DNA of 25,453 nt from a virus. The stretch's first letter is position 1. Each line of letters begins with the position of its first letter. The position numbers were made by a program, and so were the translations under genes. The notes below the pieces were generated by a model. That model did no database searches. It worked only from the letters and a program-made list of their open reading frames with translations, and was not told the origin of the DNA. Shown one piece after another: positions 3,371 to 20,180 of the stretch. The stretch is taken from positions 1 through 25,453 of the IMG/VR virus record IMGVR_UViG_3300037843_000257. The stretch is one strand, 5' to 3'.

Positions 3371-4579
3371 TCATATCGCCAACCCCGGCGTCACCGCGCA
3401 CCGCCGCCGCGCCAGCGCGCAGTATTCCGGGTTCAAGTCCACCCCGACCGAGGCTCGCCCCAGCTCCTGAGCGACCATGCACACCGTGCCGCTGCCGACG
3501 AACGGGTCGAGCACCGTGTCCCCCGGCCTGCTGCCCGCCAGCACGCACGTCTTCACCAGCGCCGACGGGAACGCCGCGAAGTGCTCCTCCCGCAGCGGAA
3601 CGGTGTTCACCGTCCAGACGCTCCTTTTGTTCACCATAACCTTGCCGGTGTAGATGCTCCCGTCCGAGTGTTTGCTCGTGTCGCCGTTGTGCTTGGTGCC
3701 CCCGAACTGGTCGGCCCGCTTCCGTGCGTTGGCGATTATTCGCTCCTTGACGGTGCTTGGATTCTGCTCCCCAGCAGCCTCGTACCCCTTGAGGCCGAGA
3801 TGCCCTTGGTATCCCTGCTCCATCTCAAGCAGCGTCGCGTCGGACGCCTCCTCCTTGATGGCCTCCGCGTCGTAGTAGTAGGTCGGCGACTTGGACAGGA
3901 GGAACACGTACTCGTGGTTGCGCGTCGGCCTGTCCCGCACGCTCTCCGGCATCCCGTTCGGTTTGTGCCAAATAATATCGCACCGCAACGTCCAGCCGTC
4001 CGTTTGTAGCGCGAACGCCACGCGCCAAGGGACGCCGAGGAGGTCTTTGGGTTTGAACCCCGGCGGTGGCACGTTGTTTCCCATACCAGAACGGTCGCAC
4101 CCGGCCAGCTTCACCGCCGCCTGCCCGGTGTTCGGCGTGCCGCGTGTCGCGTCGTCCCCGGCCTGACGTACGAAAGAATCTCCGATGTTGAGCCACAACG
4201 TCCCATCGGCCCGCAGCACGCGGCGCACTTCGCGGAACACCGCGACAAGGCTGGCCACGTACTCCTCCACCGTCCGTTCCATGCCTATTTGCCTGTCCAC
4301 GCGCATAGCACCGCACTTGCCACAGACCAACTTGAAAGTCTCGTTTCGTTGCTCGCCGGTGTTCGCCCTGCCGCGCCGCTGTGAACTAACCCCTTGCGTC
4401 TGGTGTGCCGTCTCTTGCTTGTGGTCACACGCCGGGTCGCCGCCTTCCCATTTTCCAGTCTTGTAATCCCGGAGACCATAATAAGCGGGCGACGTGACGC
4501 AGCACTGCACACTCTCCGCTGGCAGCGCCTTGAGCGCCTCGCGGCAGTCGCCACAGACTATCTCGCACGGCGGCGTCAC
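3371..4579 (-). CDS. DNA N4-cytosine/N6-adenine methyltransferase
   Basis: 403 residues from a GTG at 4579, chosen because GGAGG is 8 bases upstream and GTGA overlaps the J-domain gene's stop; GTG 4582 is an alternative. Catalytic motif IV TSPAYYGLRDY (near residues 28-38) precedes the SAM-binding motif DPFVGSGT (near 368), the order of beta-class amino-methyltransferases. A Cys-rich insertion follows motif IV (CDHKQE ... CGKCGAMR) and may bind zinc, as in many phage enzymes of this type. The C-terminus VGVDLNPEYCALARRR is typical. It transfers a methyl group to an exocyclic amine in a specific DNA site, probably to resist host restriction. All motifs are intact, unlike the other two methyltransferases in the window. 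Confidence 0.9.
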   Translation of the reverse strand: MTPPCEIVCGDCREALKALPAESVQCCVTSPAYYGLRDYKTGKWEGGDPACDHKQETAHQTQGVSSQRRGRANTGEQRNETFKLVCGKCGAMRVDRQIGMERTVEEYVASLVAVFREVRRVLRADGTLWLNIGDSFVRQAGDDATRGTPNTGQAAVKLAGCDRSGMGNNVPPPGFKPKDLLGVPWRVAFALQTDGWTLRCDIIWHKPNGMPESVRDRPTRNHEYVFLLSKSPTYYYDAEAIKEEASDATLLEMEQGYQGHLGLKGYEAAGEQNPSTVKERIIANARKRADQFGGTKHNGDTSKHSDGSIYTGKVMVNKRSVWTVNTVPLREEHFAAFPSALVKTCVLAGSRPGDTVLDPFVGSGTVCMVAQELGRASVGVDLNPEYCALARRRCAVTPGLAI

Positions 4580-5217
4580 CACGTTGTCCTCCCCATCATC
4601 TCTGTCAGCGCAGCCATGTCCAAGCTCACGCCATCGTAAAAGCACGGCGGCGGCTCGCTGCGGTAGCTGTGCTCCGCCGCCAGCGCGAGCGCCGCGTCCA
4701 GCTTGGCGACATCGAACCGAGCTCCCTTCACCCACGCCTCACCCTCCTCTGCCTTCGCCTCCAGTGCCGCGCATAGAGGCGACTCGCCGCCCATGCGAGA
4801 CAGGCGACCCGCAGCGGCTCGGAACTTCGCAACCTGCGCCTCGGCGTTCCTTATCGCCTTCTGCGATTTGCCGCGCTTGTCCAGCAGCAGTTGCGCCGCG
4901 TGCGACAGCACGTCGTGGGCCGCCACGTCCGGACAGGCGTCCACGCTGGCCACAAGCGCCGCAACCAGCTCGTCCTCAGCCTGCTGCGCCACGCTCCGCG
5001 TACCTTCGCTCGCCTCGCCGAACCTGTCGTAAGCCTCGCGCCTGGACGGGTCTTTGAGCACGCGGTAGGCGCGCTCCACGCGCTGAAACGATTCCTTGCC
5101 GCCCCCCGGCGCGTCCGGGTGCGTCACACGCGCCTTGCGCCGGTAGGCTCGCTTGAGGGTGGGGCCGTCAGCGTCGCGGGGGACGCCGAGAGTTGTGTAG
5201 TGGTCGGCCGCTTTCAT
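4576..5217 (-). CDS. J-domain (DnaJ-like) protein
   Basis: 213 residues. The N-terminal 65 residues are a J domain: YTTLGVPRDADGPTLKRAYR, then the diagnostic HPD at about 34-36 (VTHPDAPGG), then FQRVERAYRVLKDPSRREAYDRFG. The remaining 150 residues are Ala/Glu-rich and probably helical, without the zinc-finger or substrate domains of DnaJ. J domains stimulate DnaK ATPase, so the protein probably recruits host DnaK to a phage substrate, for example to remodel a replication complex (inference). Its ATG shares one base with the SSB stop (TGATG), which fits co-expression with SSB. Confidence 0.85.
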   Translation of the reverse strand: MKAADHYTTLGVPRDADGPTLKRAYRRKARVTHPDAPGGGKESFQRVERAYRVLKDPSRREAYDRFGEASEGTRSVAQQAEDELVAALVASVDACPDVAAHDVLSHAAQLLLDKRGKSQKAIRNAEAQVAKFRAAAGRLSRMGGESPLCAALEAKAEEGEAWVKGARFDVAKLDAALALAAEHSYRSEPPPCFYDGVSLDMAALTEMMGRTTW

Positions 5218-13615: not shown

Positions 13616-14323
13616 TCAATACTGCGCTTGACGCGGCGCGGTGTCAACTTTGAAAGTGAAGACTGTGACAAACGGGTTGGCGTCCCATGACCCTTTGCCG
13701 TTGATGGACTCCCACAAGTGCCTGTAACACGCGACAGGGGCCGACCAACACGACTCTGAGTAAGGGAACCTGCCCTTCTCCAGATACGACCACGACGACC
13801 CGTTGAAGAAAAGCCCTTCCTCCTTGGCCCCTTCCGTTGTGATGTCCTGGAGCCGCTCCACTCGCACCGCCGTGCAGGCCAGCCATAGCCGCGCCTGCTC
13901 GCGGCGCATGAAGATGGACGGACGCCACTTGAACGGTACCCACTGCTTGCTTTCTGGTGAATATATGCTTTGCACGCCGTCATGGACGTCGATATCAATG
14001 TGGCGGTCGTCGTCTGCTCTGTACCATATCGGGTCGTGAGGGTAGTGATTGCGGAAGTCCGTGCTGAACGTCTCCTTGACGTAGATGCGAAACGGCGGCT
14101 CTGGCGCGGCGCACTTCGCGGCTATCCTCTCCATGCACTCTTTGCAGATGTGAACGTACCCCGCCGCGTGGCCGATGCTCTTAAGCTTCGCCGACCGCCA
14201 CTCGAAGTCGTCCGGGCCATGCTCCACTGGCTGCGGCTTGAGCAGCCGCCGCGTCGCCGTCTTGCGCCCGTCGCGCAGCGCGGCGACCATAGCGCCGCAG
14301 AACAGCATACCAATTTCTTTCAC
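13616..14323 (-). CDS. ASCH-type phage protein 1
   Basis: 235 residues from GTG 14323, which overlaps the preceding gene's stop as GTGA and has GAGGG upstream. The family pattern is: N-terminal MVAALRDGRKTATRRLLKPQ; a central RIYVKETFS; WRPSIFMRREQARLWLACTA; VRVERLQDITTEGAKEEGL; and C-terminal LWESINGKGSWDANPFV followed by a beta strand. Two Cys pairs (CKECMERIAAKC) are inserted near residues 60-70. ASCH domains resemble PUA folds and are thought to bind RNA or modified nucleic acid. A paralogue lies at 19545-20180. Its exact role in phage is unknown. Confidence 0.8.
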   Translation of the reverse strand: MKEIGMLFCGAMVAALRDGRKTATRRLLKPQPVEHGPDDFEWRSAKLKSIGHAAGYVHICKECMERIAAKCAAPEPPFRIYVKETFSTDFRNHYPHDPIWYRADDDRHIDIDVHDGVQSIYSPESKQWVPFKWRPSIFMRREQARLWLACTAVRVERLQDITTEGAKEEGLFFNGSSWSYLEKGRFPYSESCWSAPVACYRHLWESINGKGSWDANPFVTVFTFKVDTAPRQAQY

Positions 14324-14607
14324 GCAGCCCTCTTTTCTTCGGTCGCTCGGCGCGGGCGGCGCGCTCTGCCGCCGCCAGCGCGAACGCCTCATTGCTCAAC
14401 TGGCACCAGTACGCTCCGTAGCGGTTCACGTCTTTATGGGCTATCCGCCCGAACAGCACGAACTTCTCCGCGTTCCACCGCTCGGCGATGGCTGAGTCCT
14501 CGTCGTTCATGTGCCGAGTGTCCACGCGGCCCCCTTGGTTCACGGCGCAGCACTCCAAACAGCAGCAGCGACTTCTCCTCTTTGGTCATTGTGTCCAGTG
14601 TCTTCAT
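14320..14607 (-). pseudogene. small phage protein gene with two compensating frameshifts
   Basis: Start ATG 14607 overlaps the upstream stop (ATGA) and encodes MKTLDTMTKEEKSLLL. The family-like continuation LECCAVNQGGRVDTRHMNDE, DSAIAERWNAEKFVLFGRIA and WCQLSNEAFALAAAERAARA is one frame over, entered near 14558-14560 by skipping one T. The end returns to the first frame near 14335-14345 as TEEKRAA-stop, giving the GTGA overlap with the ASCH gene. Total length is an exact multiple of three (96 codons). As written, the ATG frame stops at 14434. Explanations are paired sequence errors, real decay, or recoding; the first two are likelier. The intact protein would be a 95-residue phage protein of unknown role. 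Confidence 0.65.
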
Positions 14608-15723: not shown

Positions 15724-16170
15724 TTACGGACTTTTGCAAGTGTTTTTGTCGCTTTCTTTTAAAACCTTGCACCACTCGCCCTCCGCGCACAGCAGCCCCA
15801 GCCGCCGCGCCTCCGCCGGGTTGTCTCCGATGAACCTGTGGCACTCGGCGCACACGGCCTTGAAGAAACGGACGTCGAACAGCAGCAGCCCGGCGCGCCC
15901 CTTTGTGTGGTGTACATGCTCCGGCGGGTTCGGCGCGGACGGCAGCGACCGCGCAATGCACCCGTCGCACGGCCTGCTGTCGCGCCAGTACCACTGGAGA
16001 AACAGCCGCGAAATAGCCGCGTACACCGCCATCCGCGCAGCCTCGCTGCCGCTGCGCTCCTTTACGCCCCCAGCCGCGCCAGCTTCCGGCCTAAGCGCAG
16101 ACTCCTGGCGCGGGAACGCACGCACCCACGGAGCCTTCGGCTGCCTCGGCTTGGGGAGCCTGCGATTCAT
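15724..16170 (-). CDS. HNH endonuclease-like protein
   Basis: 148 residues from ATG 16170, chosen because it overlaps the methyltransferase stop as ATGA; ATG 16185 would add five residues. After a basic, Pro-rich N-terminus it holds CDGCIARSL, EHVHHTKGRAGLLLFDVRFF and VCAECHRFIGDNPAEARRLG. This is the C-x2-C ... H-H-x-x-G-R ... C-x2-C-H pattern of phage HNH nucleases, where paired cysteines hold zinc and the HH motif binds the catalytic metal. It probably nicks or cuts DNA; free-standing HNH proteins of this kind often sit near packaging or modification genes. Confidence 0.8.
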   Translation of the reverse strand: MNRRLPKPRQPKAPWVRAFPRQESALRPEAGAAGGVKERSGSEAARMAVYAAISRLFLQWYWRDSRPCDGCIARSLPSAPNPPEHVHHTKGRAGLLLFDVRFFKAVCAECHRFIGDNPAEARRLGLLCAEGEWCKVLKESDKNTCKSP

Positions 16171-16898
16171 ATCAGCACGCGCCATGCGAGCGCAACCACT
16201 GCTGGAACCTGCCCGTCTCCAGCGGCTCCAATGCGGTCCAAGTTAACGGCCACCCCATCAGCCACTCCCATACTTCGCAGGACGCCCTCGTCCCATAGCG
16301 CGCTGCGTAGATGTAATGCACGTTTTGCTGCGAATAGTCGGCCCGCCCGCACTTTGCCAACGTCTCCGTTTTCATGTTCGCGTCCTTCGCCGTCTTCATG
16401 GGTGTGGGCCAGAACGAACAGCCTTTCACGCTCGTGTCGTGCTCCAACGTCGGCAGCGGAAAACACTCCCCACCTCGCATCGTACCCCATCTCGGAAAGC
16501 TGTCCAAGCACTCGTCCAAGCCCGCGAACAGTGAGCATTGGCGAGTTCTCCACGAGCACGTATGCCGGTCCCACCTCGCCAACAACTCGTGCCATTTCAA
16601 ACCAAAGTCCGCTCCGCTCCCCGTCGATTCCTTCGACGCGCTTGTCGGCGACGTGGAGCCTGACCCGGAGCAGGTGCTTGCACGCCGCTATCCACAGCGG
16701 CGATGGCGGCGGCGTCTTCTTGCCGTCCAACACCGGCTGCACCCGGCACTGGAAGTCGGGGCAGTCGCACTTGCCCGCCCCTTTGTTCGCCAGCGCGTCC
16801 ACGAAGTACGGGGCGTGGTTGGACTCGGACTGGACGCGGAACGTGAAGTCGTCCACCTCGGTCACTTCGAGCCTATGCCACGGGGTCGCGGTGTTCAC
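16167..16898 (-). CDS. SWIM zinc finger fused to C-terminal part of a cytosine-5 methyltransferase
   Basis: 243 residues from GTG 16898 (GTGA overlap with the KH gene). Residues 1-85 look like a SWIM protein: CDC at 44-46 and CKH at 73-75 give the C-x-C-x(n)-C-x-H zinc pattern. From about residue 84 it becomes a DNA cytosine methyltransferase in mid-protein: KRVEGIDGERSGLWFEMARV, VLVENSPML (motif VI, ENS at 117-119), LSEMGYDARWGVFSAADVGA, RHERERLFVLA (motif VIII, about 154-164) and DRIGAAGDGQVPAVVALAW (motif X). The SAM-binding F-x-G-x-G and the catalytic Pro-Cys loop are absent, so it cannot methylate alone. The join looks like a deletion that fused two neighbours. Another frame at 16172-16600 overlaps it. 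Confidence 0.75.
   Translation of the reverse strand: MNTATPWHRLEVTEVDDFTFRVQSESNHAPYFVDALANKGAGKCDCPDFQCRVQPVLDGKKTPPPSPLWIAACKHLLRVRLHVADKRVEGIDGERSGLWFEMARVVGEVGPAYVLVENSPMLTVRGLGRVLGQLSEMGYDARWGVFSAADVGARHERERLFVLAHTHEDGEGREHENGDVGKVRAGRLFAAKRALHLRSALWDEGVLRSMGVADGVAVNLDRIGAAGDGQVPAVVALAWRVLI
16172..16600 (-). CDS. overprinted frame encoding a methyltransferase-associated C-terminal protein
   Basis: 142 residues in a frame shifted by one base from the 16167-16898 gene. TTG 16600 is the only available start, with GGAGCGGA upstream; coding-like sequence (SGADFGLKWHELLARWD) begins a little before it. It contains a pattern I know from phage proteins accompanying cytosine methyltransferases: WDRHTCSWRTRQCSLF, SFPRWGTMRGGECFPLPTLE, FWPTPMKTA and EWLMGWPLTWTALEPLETG, then FQQWLRSHG. 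By hand count over the first 45 codons, third-position GC is about 76% here against about 58% in the overlapping methyltransferase frame. The sense of both frames suggests real overprinting. Translation from TTG is unproven, and its role (target recognition or regulation) is unknown. Confidence 0.5.
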   Translation of the reverse strand: MKWHELLARWDRHTCSWRTRQCSLFAGLDECLDSFPRWGTMRGGECFPLPTLEHDTSVKGCSFWPTPMKTAKDANMKTETLAKCGRADYSQQNVHYIYAARYGTRASCEVWEWLMGWPLTWTALEPLETGRFQQWLRSHGAC

Positions 16899-17578
16899 CG
16901 CACCACCTCCGCAAACCGCCCGTCGGCCCGCGCCGGCTGAGGCGCAGCCGCCCGCCGCCGCACGTAGTGTACCGCGACCTTCCTTCCCTTCGCCTTTCCC
17001 GCCGCCGCGAACACCGTGGACAGCGCCGCACCGAGAGCCGCGTCCCCGCGCACCGTGGTCGGTTCCCCTCCCCCGCTGTCCGGCGGCACCACGTAGGTCA
17101 GCGCCGCGACCTGCTCTGGCTCCCTGTCGTCCGGCACCACCTCGAACTCGCTGCGCTTACAGAACTCTGCCGCGCTCACCGACGCCGGGTACAGCAACAC
17201 CGCCCGGAGCACGCGCTCCAGGAGCGCACGCGCCCAGCGCCCGTCCTTCGCCGCGACCTCCGGCTCCGGCCTGTCCTGCTGCGCCGGGTTCGGCCCCCCG
17301 TCAGCCTGCACGCAGTAGTTGACCGCCCAGCCCGCCTTCGCGCCTGCCAGGCGCGCCAGCAGTTGAAACGCCTTAACCGTCCTGCCCTTGCGCCCGATGA
17401 GGTTCCCCGTGTCCTCCGCCGTTGGGTTGGACGCCACCGTCACAGACGCCGCGCCGTGGCGCACCTCCACCTCCAGCTTGTCGGGGTTTGACACCAGTGC
17501 CTTGGCGAGCGCGGTGAACAGCGAAGAGACGCCGCGCCACGCCGCCTGCTCTTGAGTCTGCTCTGTCGTGTCGTCCAT
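16895..17578 (-). CDS. tandem KH-domain RNA-binding protein
   Basis: 227 residues from ATG 17578; ATG 17674 (ATGA overlap upstream) would add 32 residues that look less coding. Residues about 18-95 are a KH-type domain like KhpA: SLFTALAKALVSNPDKLEVE, then GNLIGRKGRTVKAFQLLARL with the G-x-x-G loop that grips RNA. The second half repeats the pattern (ALLERVLRAVLLYP ... RGDAALGAALSTVFAAAG ... VAVHYV) but without a G-x-x-G loop, so it may be a degenerate partner domain. KH proteins bind single-stranded RNA; a phage protein of this type could steer mRNA fate. The frame's upstream extension through the hexamer repeat is not real coding. Confidence 0.7.
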   Translation of the reverse strand: MDDTTEQTQEQAAWRGVSSLFTALAKALVSNPDKLEVEVRHGAASVTVASNPTAEDTGNLIGRKGRTVKAFQLLARLAGAKAGWAVNYCVQADGGPNPAQQDRPEPEVAAKDGRWARALLERVLRAVLLYPASVSAAEFCKRSEFEVVPDDREPEQVAALTYVVPPDSGGGEPTTVRGDAALGAALSTVFAAAGKAKGRKVAVHYVRRRAAAPQPARADGRFAEVVR

Positions 17579-17670
17579 GTTCGTAACCGTAGGGTGCGCC
17601 TCGCGGTGGACCGTGTCAAGGGTCTTTGCAGCGCGGGCACTCCGCACTTGGTGAATAATTGGAAGTGTTT

Positions 17671-17722
17671 TCATCCCTCCTTCGGGTAAAGTGCTTCGAC
17701 CTCCCGCAATGATTCTGCGATG
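17671..17722 (-). pseudogene. duplicated gene tail (SLREVEALYPKE)
   Basis: The minus strand reads AESLREVEALYPKEG-stop, matching the C-terminal AESLREVEALYPKE of the 18295-18558 gene. Bases 17684-17709 are identical to 18329-18354. The fragment has no start of its own. Its TGA overlaps an ATG at 17674, so it probably marks the former end of the 87-residue gene before a two-gene block was inserted. Confidence 0.6.
17684..17709. repeat. 26-base direct repeat, left copy
   Basis: Perfect match to 18329-18354 in the same orientation. With 18329-18354 it brackets the hexamer-repeat gene and the 109-residue gene. Confidence 0.95.
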
Positions 17723-17729
17723 GCCTGAT

Positions 17730-17978
17730 TTAGCCCGACCGCGACCCCGACCGCGACCGCGCCCCCGACCGCGACCGCGACCCCGACCGCGACCCCGACC
17801 ACGACCCCGACCCCGACCACGACCCCGACCCCGACCCCGACCCCGACCACGACCGCGACCCCGACCGCGACCGCGACCCCGACCACGACCGCGACCCCGA
17901 CCGCGACCGCGACCGCGACCGCGACCCCGACCGCGACCCCGACCGCGACCATCCAATTGCTTGTATGGCTGCGTTCAT
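17730..17978 (-). CDS. hexanucleotide-repeat gene, Ser/Arg/Gly protein
   Basis: 82 residues from ATG 17978, which overlaps the upstream stop as ATGA. After MNAAIQAIGW the protein is almost only S-R-S-G and S-W-S-G units to the TAA at 17732-17730. All three minus-strand frames are open through the repeat (reading S-R-S-G, V-A-V-G or R-G-R-G), so openness alone is no evidence; the coupled start and the unique first ten residues favour this frame. I recall low-complexity S/G-rich proteins at this place in related phages, next to the 109-residue family. A basic, disordered, nucleic-acid- or phase-separating protein is conceivable. Confidence 0.5.
   Translation of the reverse strand: MNAAIQAIGWSRSGSRSGSRSRSRSRSGSRSWSGSRSRSGSRSWSGSGSGSGSWSGSGSWSGSRSGSRSRSGARSRSGSRSG
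17736..17950. repeat. hexanucleotide tandem repeat (CGACCN)n
   Basis: About 36 units of plus-strand CGACC plus a variable base (G, C or A). Unit length is a multiple of three, so gain or loss of units never shifts the frame. Short-read assembly may have collapsed or misjudged the true length. Confidence 0.95.
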
Positions 17979-18570: not shown

Positions 18571-19518
18571 TCAAAACTCCGGCACCTGGCGGATTTGTAA
18601 ATCATGGGGTCCCTCCGCCAGGTCGCCACCCTTCTTGTCGTGCAGGCACATCGCCGTCTCGGACGGGTCTTCGCCGCCGCGCTTGTGGGGGTTACTTCCG
18701 AATTGCTTCATAAAAAACAGGACACCAGCCGCCGCGCACTGGTCGCGCAAGTCCCTCGCCCAGGCGAGGTTGAACGGCCTCGCGCCGGGGCCGCTTTCGC
18801 CCCCGCAGATGACCCAATGAATTTGCTCGCCATATTTCACCGTCACTGGTTCGCCCGTCCTCTCCCGGCCACCCATTGTTTGCGTCGTGGCAAGCGCCTT
18901 GAACGCGGGTAGGTGCAGGTCAATCGCTTCCAGCATCGGCTCGACGCTCAGGAAGCGCCAGCGGGCCGGGGTCGCCAGCAGTTGCGGTATCCGCTCATCA
19001 GCCGCCTTCTGGTTCTCGACGCTCACGCCGATGGCGACGTTCGGTGGCGCTGTGCGTTGTCGAATCCATTCCCACGCGAATTGAAGTTCCGGATTGGCAT
19101 TGGCGGTCGCGGCGCGGGTACGCGCTTGAAACTTCTGCGGCCTCTTAGTCAATAGGAGATACCGCAGTTCCGGCGTCTTATAGATAATAACCAGCATCCG
19201 CGCCAGCCATTCGGCCTGGACTTCATCATCCAACCAGTCTCCGAGGCTGAAAAACACGCGGCGGCGGTGCATCTGTTGTCCTTGGTATGCAAAACACTCG
19301 CCCGTCAGGTCGCACACCCACGGCTTCTTGTTCCACCGCAGCGGCGCGTCAAAGTCTTTAGCTAACATGCGGGGAGCACCTTTGCCCCATTCTCCGCGAA
19401 GGCGCGTCGTGACCAGCTTCTCGGCGTAGCAGTGCGCGCATCCGGGCGAGACCTTGGTGCATCCCCTCCAAGGGTTCCAGGTAGCATCCGTCCATTCAAT
19501 GTTTGACTTCTCGCTCAT
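18571..19518 (-). CDS. DUF5131 (phage Gp37/Gp68) family protein
   Basis: 315 residues from ATG 19518. Family hallmarks: N-terminal SNIEWTDATWNPWRGCTKVS, PGCAHCYAEKL with cysteines spaced as in radical-SAM-like proteins (C-x6-C-x2-C), FFSLGDWLDD, LLLTKRPQKF, ERIPQLLATPARWRFLSVEP, HWVICGGESGPGARPFNLAW and a final FFMKQFGS. The fold resembles radical SAM TIM barrels, but the Cys spacing is not the classical C-x3-C-x2-C, so chemistry is uncertain. The family is frequent in phages; its target is unknown. Confidence 0.85.
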   Translation of the reverse strand: MSEKSNIEWTDATWNPWRGCTKVSPGCAHCYAEKLVTTRLRGEWGKGAPRMLAKDFDAPLRWNKKPWVCDLTGECFAYQGQQMHRRRVFFSLGDWLDDEVQAEWLARMLVIIYKTPELRYLLLTKRPQKFQARTRAATANANPELQFAWEWIRQRTAPPNVAIGVSVENQKAADERIPQLLATPARWRFLSVEPMLEAIDLHLPAFKALATTQTMGGRERTGEPVTVKYGEQIHWVICGGESGPGARPFNLAWARDLRDQCAAAGVLFFMKQFGSNPHKRGGEDPSETAMCLHDKKGGDLAEGPHDLQIRQVPEF

Positions 19519-19544: not shown

Positions 19545-20180
19545 TTATCCTCTCCATTTATCGAATTGATAGACAAAGACCCAGGGATTTAAGTCCCATG
19601 AGCCTCTGCCGTTGATGGATTCCCAAAGAAACTCATAGGCCGCACGCGCCGAGTGAAGGCCGCCCCCTTTTTCAGGGAAGGCCCGATAGACCATGACTTG
19701 ATTCACATGCGAACCACCGCCATGAATGACATGAGATGTAATCCCCTCCGCTTCCGCCCCCTCCTCCGTGATGTCTTGCAGCCGCTCAACGCGGATTGCC
19801 GTGCAAATCGGCAAGATGCGGGCGTGCTCCCGGCGCATGTGGATGCTCGGCTTCCATCCGCCATACAACCCGGATAGCCCAGCAGCCTCGCAGCCATCGT
19901 AATCGGCCCGGTAAATGGTGCCTGACTTTTTGGGGATGAAAGTTTCCCTGCCCCAAATCGTGTCGCCAGGAGCGCCTTTGGCGCGGGCCAAGAAATTGTA
20001 ATCTTCCCACCACAAGACCGCCATCCATTTGCCGCCCCGTATTCCCTGTTCCCCAAGGCTCCATTTATCCGGATTGTTGTTGACCGCCTCAAGCCCTCGC
20101 GTGCTTCGCGCCTCGGTCTTCCGCCGGTCGAAATACGCACGAACCCCCGGATCCGAAAATAATAGAGGGAATTCTTTCAC
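19545..20180 (-). CDS. ASCH-type phage protein 2
   Basis: 211 residues from GTG 20180 (GTGA overlap). It shares with the 13616-14323 protein the blocks KPSIHMRREHARILPICTAI, RVERLQDITEEGAEAEGI and LWESINGRGSWDLNPWVFVY. The N-terminal half has diverged: LLFSDPGVRAYFDRRKTEAR and GDTIWGRETFIPKKSGTIYR. It probably binds nucleic acid through a PUA-like fold. DNA here is noticeably less GC-rich, and the N-terminal half differs from its paralogue, so the two were probably acquired separately, not duplicated in place. Confidence 0.8.
   Translation of the reverse strand: MKEFPLLFSDPGVRAYFDRRKTEARSTRGLEAVNNNPDKWSLGEQGIRGGKWMAVLWWEDYNFLARAKGAPGDTIWGRETFIPKKSGTIYRADYDGCEAAGLSGLYGGWKPSIHMRREHARILPICTAIRVERLQDITEEGAEAEGITSHVIHGGGSHVNQVMVYRAFPEKGGGLHSARAAYEFLWESINGRGSWDLNPWVFVYQFDKWRG

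Follow-up and report, generated by a model that had tools for sequence, protein, structure and literature searches.

A probable two-polypeptide C5-cytosine DNA methyltransferase family with its subunits in two frames of the same DNA, and a 5'-truncated viral copy

A viral metagenomic contig (IMG/VR record IMGVR_UViG_3300037843_000257), analyzed over its full 25,453 nucleotides and called the window here, carries two open reading frames in overlapping registers of one DNA stretch. We consider this locus, with good confidence, to be a 5'-truncated member of a two-polypeptide C5-cytosine DNA methyltransferase family whose subunits are encoded in two frames of the same DNA. The family of frame A is named alpha, and that of frame B, which lies in the +1 register relative to frame A, is named beta. 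A sequence-only reading of the window had reported two recognizable methyltransferase-type proteins in this stretch; both frames are open on the minus strand where it placed them, every motif that it quoted was located, and its observation that one stretch encodes two real protein families is confirmed by sequence homology. Its interpretation of how the overlap arose and which frame is the more constrained is partly supported, as described below.

Two methyltransferase families in one stretch of the window

Database homologues exist for both frames. Frame A matched PF00145 in Pfam over residues 89-169 (E = 2.5e-13) and the PHROGs family phrog_363, 'DNA methyltransferase', over residues 89-241 (E = 5.8e-29), and it contains C5-methyltransferase motifs VI, VIII and X (Table 1), the last with an Asp replacing the Asn of GN.VP (GDGQVP). 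Frame B matched phrog_1008, also named 'DNA methyltransferase' (E = 8.3e-15), along with two small families of unknown function, phrog_26627 (E = 7.7e-11) and phrog_35493 (E = 5.9e-9), and its stop-to-stop frame (16175-16687) aligned with positions 83-254 of the beta profile (domain E = 2.9e-54). Frame B had no match in Pfam or NCBIfam, and searches with beta sequences in Pfam, NCBIfam and PDB found nothing significant. Families phrog_363 and phrog_1008 also match the two frames of intact relatives. When the frame A protein was held fixed and its synonymous codons were permuted, the openness of frame B over the 513-nt overlap had a P value of 0.0067, which is modest by itself, the homologues being decisive; the same test was non-significant in several other loci (for example, P = 0.30 in L007 and P = 0.16 in L004). 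An earlier hand count of third-position GC also holds, with 80% in frame B, 55% in frame A and 73-86% in the neighboring genes.

Table 1. Coordinates of the two frames, their motifs and the adjoining genes in the window
Feature	Position	Strand	Description
Frame A ORF (alpha')	16167..16898	minus	243 aa; GTG start; stop 16167-16169
Frame A make-up	16167..16898	minus	SWIM-like N-terminus fused in frame to C5-methyltransferase motifs V-VIII and X
Non-methyltransferase N-terminal segment	16644..16898	minus	CDCPDFQCR...CKHLL, SWIM-like by eye, in place of alpha motifs I-IV
Breakpoint	16642..16643	minus	Family homology of both frames begins here: alpha position 84 at 16643, beta position 83 at 16642
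Alpha-family portion of frame A	16170..16643	minus	Alpha profile positions 84-261, domain E = 7e-52
Frame A motif VI	16533-16559	minus	VLVENSPML
Frame A motif VIII	16416-16439	minus	RHERERLF
Frame A motif X	16182-16220	minus	GDGQVPAVVALAW
Frame B ORF (beta')	16172..16600	minus	142 aa; TTG start; recognition region and motif IX
Frame B motif	16442-16498	minus	FPRWGTMRGGECFPLPTLE
Frame B motif	16400-16414	minus	FWPTP
Frame B motif IX	16235-16267	minus	EWLMGWPLTWT
Frame B conserved tail	16181-16207	minus	FQQWLRSHG
Upstream gene, KH-domain protein	16895..17956	minus	PF13083, E = 1.8e-12; stop codon overlaps the frame A GTG
Downstream gene, weak HNH-like match	15724..16185	minus	phrog_740, E = 0.011; start codon within the ends of frames A and B

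Several other features of the window were recorded. The 5' part of the KH-domain ORF is made up of a long short-tandem-repeat run (17700-17956) that reads as (GR)n or (PR)n and produces spurious long ORFs on both strands. The window also holds two paralogous phrog_874 proteins of unknown function (13619-14392 and 19548-20180), a phage-family DUF5131 protein of unknown function (18571-19518; PF07505, E = 4.9e-70) and a second DNA methyltransferase gene (3374-4735; phrog_67, E = 3e-66), which the PF00145 search misses and which therefore falls outside the C5 type treated here.

The truncated copy and its SWIM-like segment

Frame A is an incomplete methyltransferase in the window, a point that the sequence-only reading overlooked. 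Its methyltransferase match is confined to residues 86-242, with the family profile matched only from position 84 and PF00145 only from position 81, and both the AdoMet-binding motif I and the catalytic PCQ of motif IV are absent. Most intact relatives have the full set of motifs I-VIII in the large polypeptide, and the window copy does not. We looked throughout the window for the missing alpha N-terminus, or for any other alpha or beta fragment, and found none. The segment that takes the place of motifs I-IV has a CxC...CxH pattern and no Pfam match at E < 1. The one relative that turned up, with 43% identity over 51 aa, is a stand-alone 107-aa ORF located about 2 kb from, and upstream of, the intact methyltransferase in locus L064; phage records and the viral-contig scan held no relative of the segment, and a search for sister contigs with the same fusion by way of the neighboring genes gave nothing usable.

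We propose that a single break at 16642/16643 took out alpha motifs I-IV together with the N-terminal part of beta, and that the remainder of alpha would then have been joined in frame to the SWIM-like segment. Because the catalytic Cys (PCQ) and motif I are gone, the window pair alone is predicted not to methylate DNA, and since the conserved shared start described below is also lost, beta' would start at the TTG at 16600. The window departs from conserved positions at 3 of 40 sites in one frame and 3 of 21 in the other, no more than intact relatives do, and this near-intact state is equally compatible with a recent truncation, with retained function and with an assembly chimera.

A deletion and an assembly chimera would in fact look the same in the window copy, and there is an appreciable chance, short of an even one, that the joint between the SWIM-like segment and alpha is chimeric and that the phage itself carries a SWIM-like gene apart from an intact alpha/beta gene. 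The joint comes from a single metagenomic contig with no second contig found to carry it, L064 has the SWIM-like and alpha/beta sequences as separate genes in one region, and neither window frame shows decay. However, the reading frame continues across the joint, and the gene is tightly packed with its neighbors, the overlapping start and stop codons giving an operon-like arrangement. It is unlikely that the window copy is instead a real, retained and non-methylating fusion, such as a sequence-specific DNA-binding alpha'/beta' pair that carries the SWIM-like segment. Nearly all conserved residues survive in both frames after the loss of motifs I-IV, but we found no relative with the same fusion and the N-terminal segment lacks a family match. 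A truncated member of the two-polypeptide family is the reading that we adopt for the locus.

Alpha and beta genes overlap across viruses and bacteria

Scans of viral contigs returned 9 loci with the frame B query and 80 with the frame A query, and in 91 of 91 viral loci both proteins were present, with B always +1 to A. When bacterial genomes were scanned with the beta profile alone, alpha overlapped beta in the same register in 79 of 80 loci, in a search that was seeded by the motif-IX peptide and would leave any beta lacking that peptide unseen. In 274 genomes drawn from a single class, a profile search found 12 matches, mostly distant, and all 12 overlapped an ORF resembling A in this same register. 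Homologues of the second protein are encoded over a methyltransferase in essentially every case, as the sequence-only reading had proposed to check. A beta without alpha was sought among the 80 bacterial loci and the 274-genome draw and none was found, locus L171 being an inserted or rearranged case.

The overlap had been described as one of methyltransferase C-termini. Both C-termini are present, but in intact relatives the overlap spans the whole gene, and its length, 513 nt in the window, is about 660-1145 nt in most relatives. The beta frame is open along the length of alpha in 85 of 87 viral loci, and the third frame has about 15 stops.

Some loci depart from this layout. In L171 (1-720), the motif IX/X region of alpha/beta contains an inserted HNH-type endonuclease frame with LMGWP repeated on both sides, resembling the homing insertions known from other phage methylases. 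About 0.6-0.75 kb interrupts the alpha and beta matches between the recognition region and motif IX/X in L010 (3190-3950), a likely insertion. An E. coli prophage copy (L095, 1501-2262) is annotated as a pseudogene and both of its frames have stops, within 7 nt of each other. In Mycobacterium phage Jinglebell (L094, 2090-3005) and several relatives, alpha is split by a frame change; the annotated genes of Jinglebell lie on the opposite strand.

A shared start and a division of roles between the subunits

In intact relatives, the beta start lies 4 nt after that of alpha (ATGAATGAG). Alpha opens with MNELALFAGAGGG, which is motif I, and beta opens four bases on with MSWLFSQALVEEYSA (NTGAATGAG). 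Of 117 distinct loci, 107 have a start codon at +4. Where the second codon of alpha encodes Asn, it is AAT in 94 of 95 cases and AAC in one; over the alpha/beta genes as a whole, AAC is the commoner Asn codon (AAC:AAT 414:247). The fixation of AAT at this codon keeps the ATG of beta. Three loci without the +4 site (L029, L035 and L084) retain the MSY/MSW/MTW start of beta from a nearby upstream ATG. A Shine-Dalgarno-like 4-mer precedes 92 of 110 shared starts, as against 24 of 110 random positions, and the beta start usually follows an in-frame stop. We infer that beta is translated, and that it would initiate at an ATG or GTG four bases past the alpha start, apparently by way of the same ribosome-binding site. 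Given such a shared site, alpha and beta would be made together, and they may then assemble into one enzyme.

The alpha profile aligns with residues 15-179 of M.HhaI, corresponding to motifs I-VIII. In the predicted structure of alpha, the catalytic domain is modeled with confidence and two C-terminal helices surround motif X; confidence is low for residues 171-208, where a recognition domain should sit. Foldseek placed the model on M.HaeIII and M.HhaI over about 167 residues. On the basis of this alignment, model and placement, alpha appears to have no recognition domain of its own. Beta, which is about 220-330 aa long in the relatives studied, carries a (F/W)PTP-type recognition region and a motif-IX-like EWLMGWPxGWT. 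A fold search of PDB with the beta model, which is poor (mean pLDDT of 60, with the N-terminal 95 residues low), gave no match, and it is the position of its motifs and constraint, rather than fold, that point to beta as the recognition subunit. In intact relatives, alpha, with motifs I-VIII plus X, would supply the domain for catalysis and AdoMet binding, and beta would contribute the target-recognition region and motif IX.

It is very unlikely that programmed ribosomal frameshifting joins alpha and beta into a single protein, in place of two independent starts. Beta is in the +1 frame throughout, which could suit such a mechanism, and the recognition region and motif IX would thereby become covalently joined to the catalytic domain. 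However, beta has the conserved start of its own described above, usually behind a stop, its N-terminal third is under constraint (omega 0.57, interval 0.43-0.74, covering alpha motifs I-III) and M.EcoHK31I works as two polypeptides. We retain the model of two separately started subunits.

Purifying selection on both frames

Frame-specific constraint was computed from 40 independent pairs (27 in an earlier run), with each change classed by its effect in both frames. As simple counts uncorrected for multiple hits or transitions, omega over the whole gene was 0.39 (0.34-0.44) for frame A and 0.51 (0.42-0.59) for frame B, compared to 1.49 (1.36-1.65) for the third-frame control; by these counts, purifying selection acts on both frames. 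In the part of the gene that covers motifs I-III, omega for A was 0.18. At motif IV, A was at 0.07 and B at 1.02, so B is unconstrained there. The two frames were at 0.26 and 0.53 over motifs V-VIII, at 0.80 and 0.48 in the recognition region, and at 0.52 and 0.50 over motifs IX/X (A and B, respectively). The suggestion that frame B is the more constrained of the two holds for the recognition region and fails for the gene as a whole.

The similarity of frame B among distant relatives exceeds the expectation from synonymous permutation (z = 6.1 overall, 5.5 for IX/X and 3.2 for V-VIII), which bears out the view that neither frame is a plain shadow; the same test on the N-terminal part of beta gave z = 1.9, a weaker support for selection. 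That frame B is a mechanical shadow, kept open by high GC and the conservation of alpha and never translated, is very unlikely and strongly disfavored. Alternative frames are often open in high-GC genes, the openness test alone is non-significant in L007 and L004 among others, and the motif-IV stretch of B is unconstrained, but the shadow reading is rejected by the selection, permutation and start-codon tests (B against the control frame, the excess similarity at IX/X and the fixed AAT that preserves the beta ATG), and phage protein families exist for frame B.

Origin of the overlap

It had been noted, correctly, that a motif-X tail translated one base over gives a WPIxWTD-like sequence, and this had been taken to suggest that frame B arose by overprinting of the methyltransferase C-terminus. 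The motif layout in three phages speaks against that origin. In the Streptomyces phages Vash and phiBT1 and the Gordonia phage Upyo, alpha ends after motif VIII, and the recognition region and motifs IX and X all lie in the +1 frame (EWMMGLEPGWVT...IGNGVVP); the motif-X part of the alpha profile matches the Vash beta frame (E = 0.002). This M.AquI-like state suggests that the C-terminal half of beta represents the original C-terminus of the methyltransferase. This half may have been split off by a frameshift after motif VIII, and a later length change between motifs IX and X would have returned motif X to frame A. Overprinting more likely produced the N-terminal half of beta, over motifs I-VIII, and the passage of alpha through the recognition region. 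The order of these states, AquI-like and then EcoHK31I-like, is our reading of an unrooted comparison.

Annotation and significance

In the phage records examined, usually frame A alone is annotated. Vash has two overlapping genes, both named DNA methylase, Upyo has two adjacent ones, and phiBT1 has only alpha, with a note of possible inactivity. The overlap is widespread and mostly unannotated. We searched the open-access literature for overlapping or nested phage methyltransferase genes and found no description beyond that of M.EcoHK31I as a split enzyme. The kind of enzyme is already known from the M.EcoHK31I layout, which the sequence-only reading had passed over, and is rare; its spread, shared start and dual selection appear to be undocumented in the open-access literature searched.

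We lean toward the view that, among the small C5-methyltransferases of phages and prophages that are annotated as one protein, a large share are obligate two-subunit enzymes, the recognition subunit being a systematically missed full-length +1 gene co-initiated 4 nt downstream, and that the superfamily keeps successive stages of gene splitting (AquI-like, then EcoHK31I-like). This would account for the many phage 'orphan' C5-methyltransferases that seem to be without a recognition domain, and for the inactive enzyme that could result when the annotated frame is expressed by itself, in recoded form or with an altered start. Long same-strand overlaps of two conserved functional families are rare in double-stranded DNA phages and bacteria; the one described here is conserved across many phyla, judged by contig titles, has measurable selection in both frames and would offer a tractable system for how one gene turns into two overlapping ones.

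Comparison with known systems

The family records returned for phrog_363 (alpha) and phrog_1008 (beta) do not present them as overlapping partners. Prophage m5C enzymes of Paracoccus and Sinorhizobium were dropped as functional proxies; they belong to another subfamily, since they are described as about 700 aa. The ShiLan domain is an out-of-frame HNH endonuclease within a phage methylase, a mobile insertion encoding a homing endonuclease (PMC11855218). In both cases a phage DNA methylase gene hides a second protein in one of its other frames, but beta is the enzyme's own C-terminal region with no insertion. A ShiLan-type HNH/LAGLIDADG insertion was rejected for the window, where frame B matches only methyltransferase-associated and unnamed phage families and no endonuclease.

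M.AquI has the specificity CYCGRG and M.EcoHK31I the specificity YGGCCR. The subunits of M.AquI overlap at their junction, whereas the overlap here is full-length. Vash, phiBT1 and Upyo (L190, L191 and L192) resemble M.AquI, with motifs I-VIII in alpha and the recognition region and motifs IX and X in the +1 frame; in the window and in most relatives, by contrast, motif X stays in alpha and the small subunit does not hold IX and X together. The small polypeptide of M.EcoHK31I is said, in the 1995 paper on this enzyme, to be read from an alternative frame inside the large gene, a trait that the +1 frame of beta would share throughout, and both polypeptides are reportedly required for activity. 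Beta here is longer than the reported 176 aa of its M.EcoHK31I counterpart, and starts 4 nt after alpha.

M.AquI and M.EcoHK31I each consist of two polypeptides (PMC3404938). In M.EcoHK31I, a C5-methyltransferase (Lee, Kam and Shaw 1995, cited in PMC3404938), the large polypeptide bears motifs I-VIII and X, and the small one motif IX only (PMC3404938). Compared by this published motif split and not by the sequence of M.EcoHK31I, the window has the same arrangement of X in frame A (GDGQVP) and IX in frame B (EWLMGWPLTWT), and intact relatives are split alike; the window copy differs in lacking motifs I-IV. The predicted recognition domain of M.EcoHK31I has been assigned to the large subunit (PMC3404938), whereas constraint and the alpha model put recognition in beta in the family described here.
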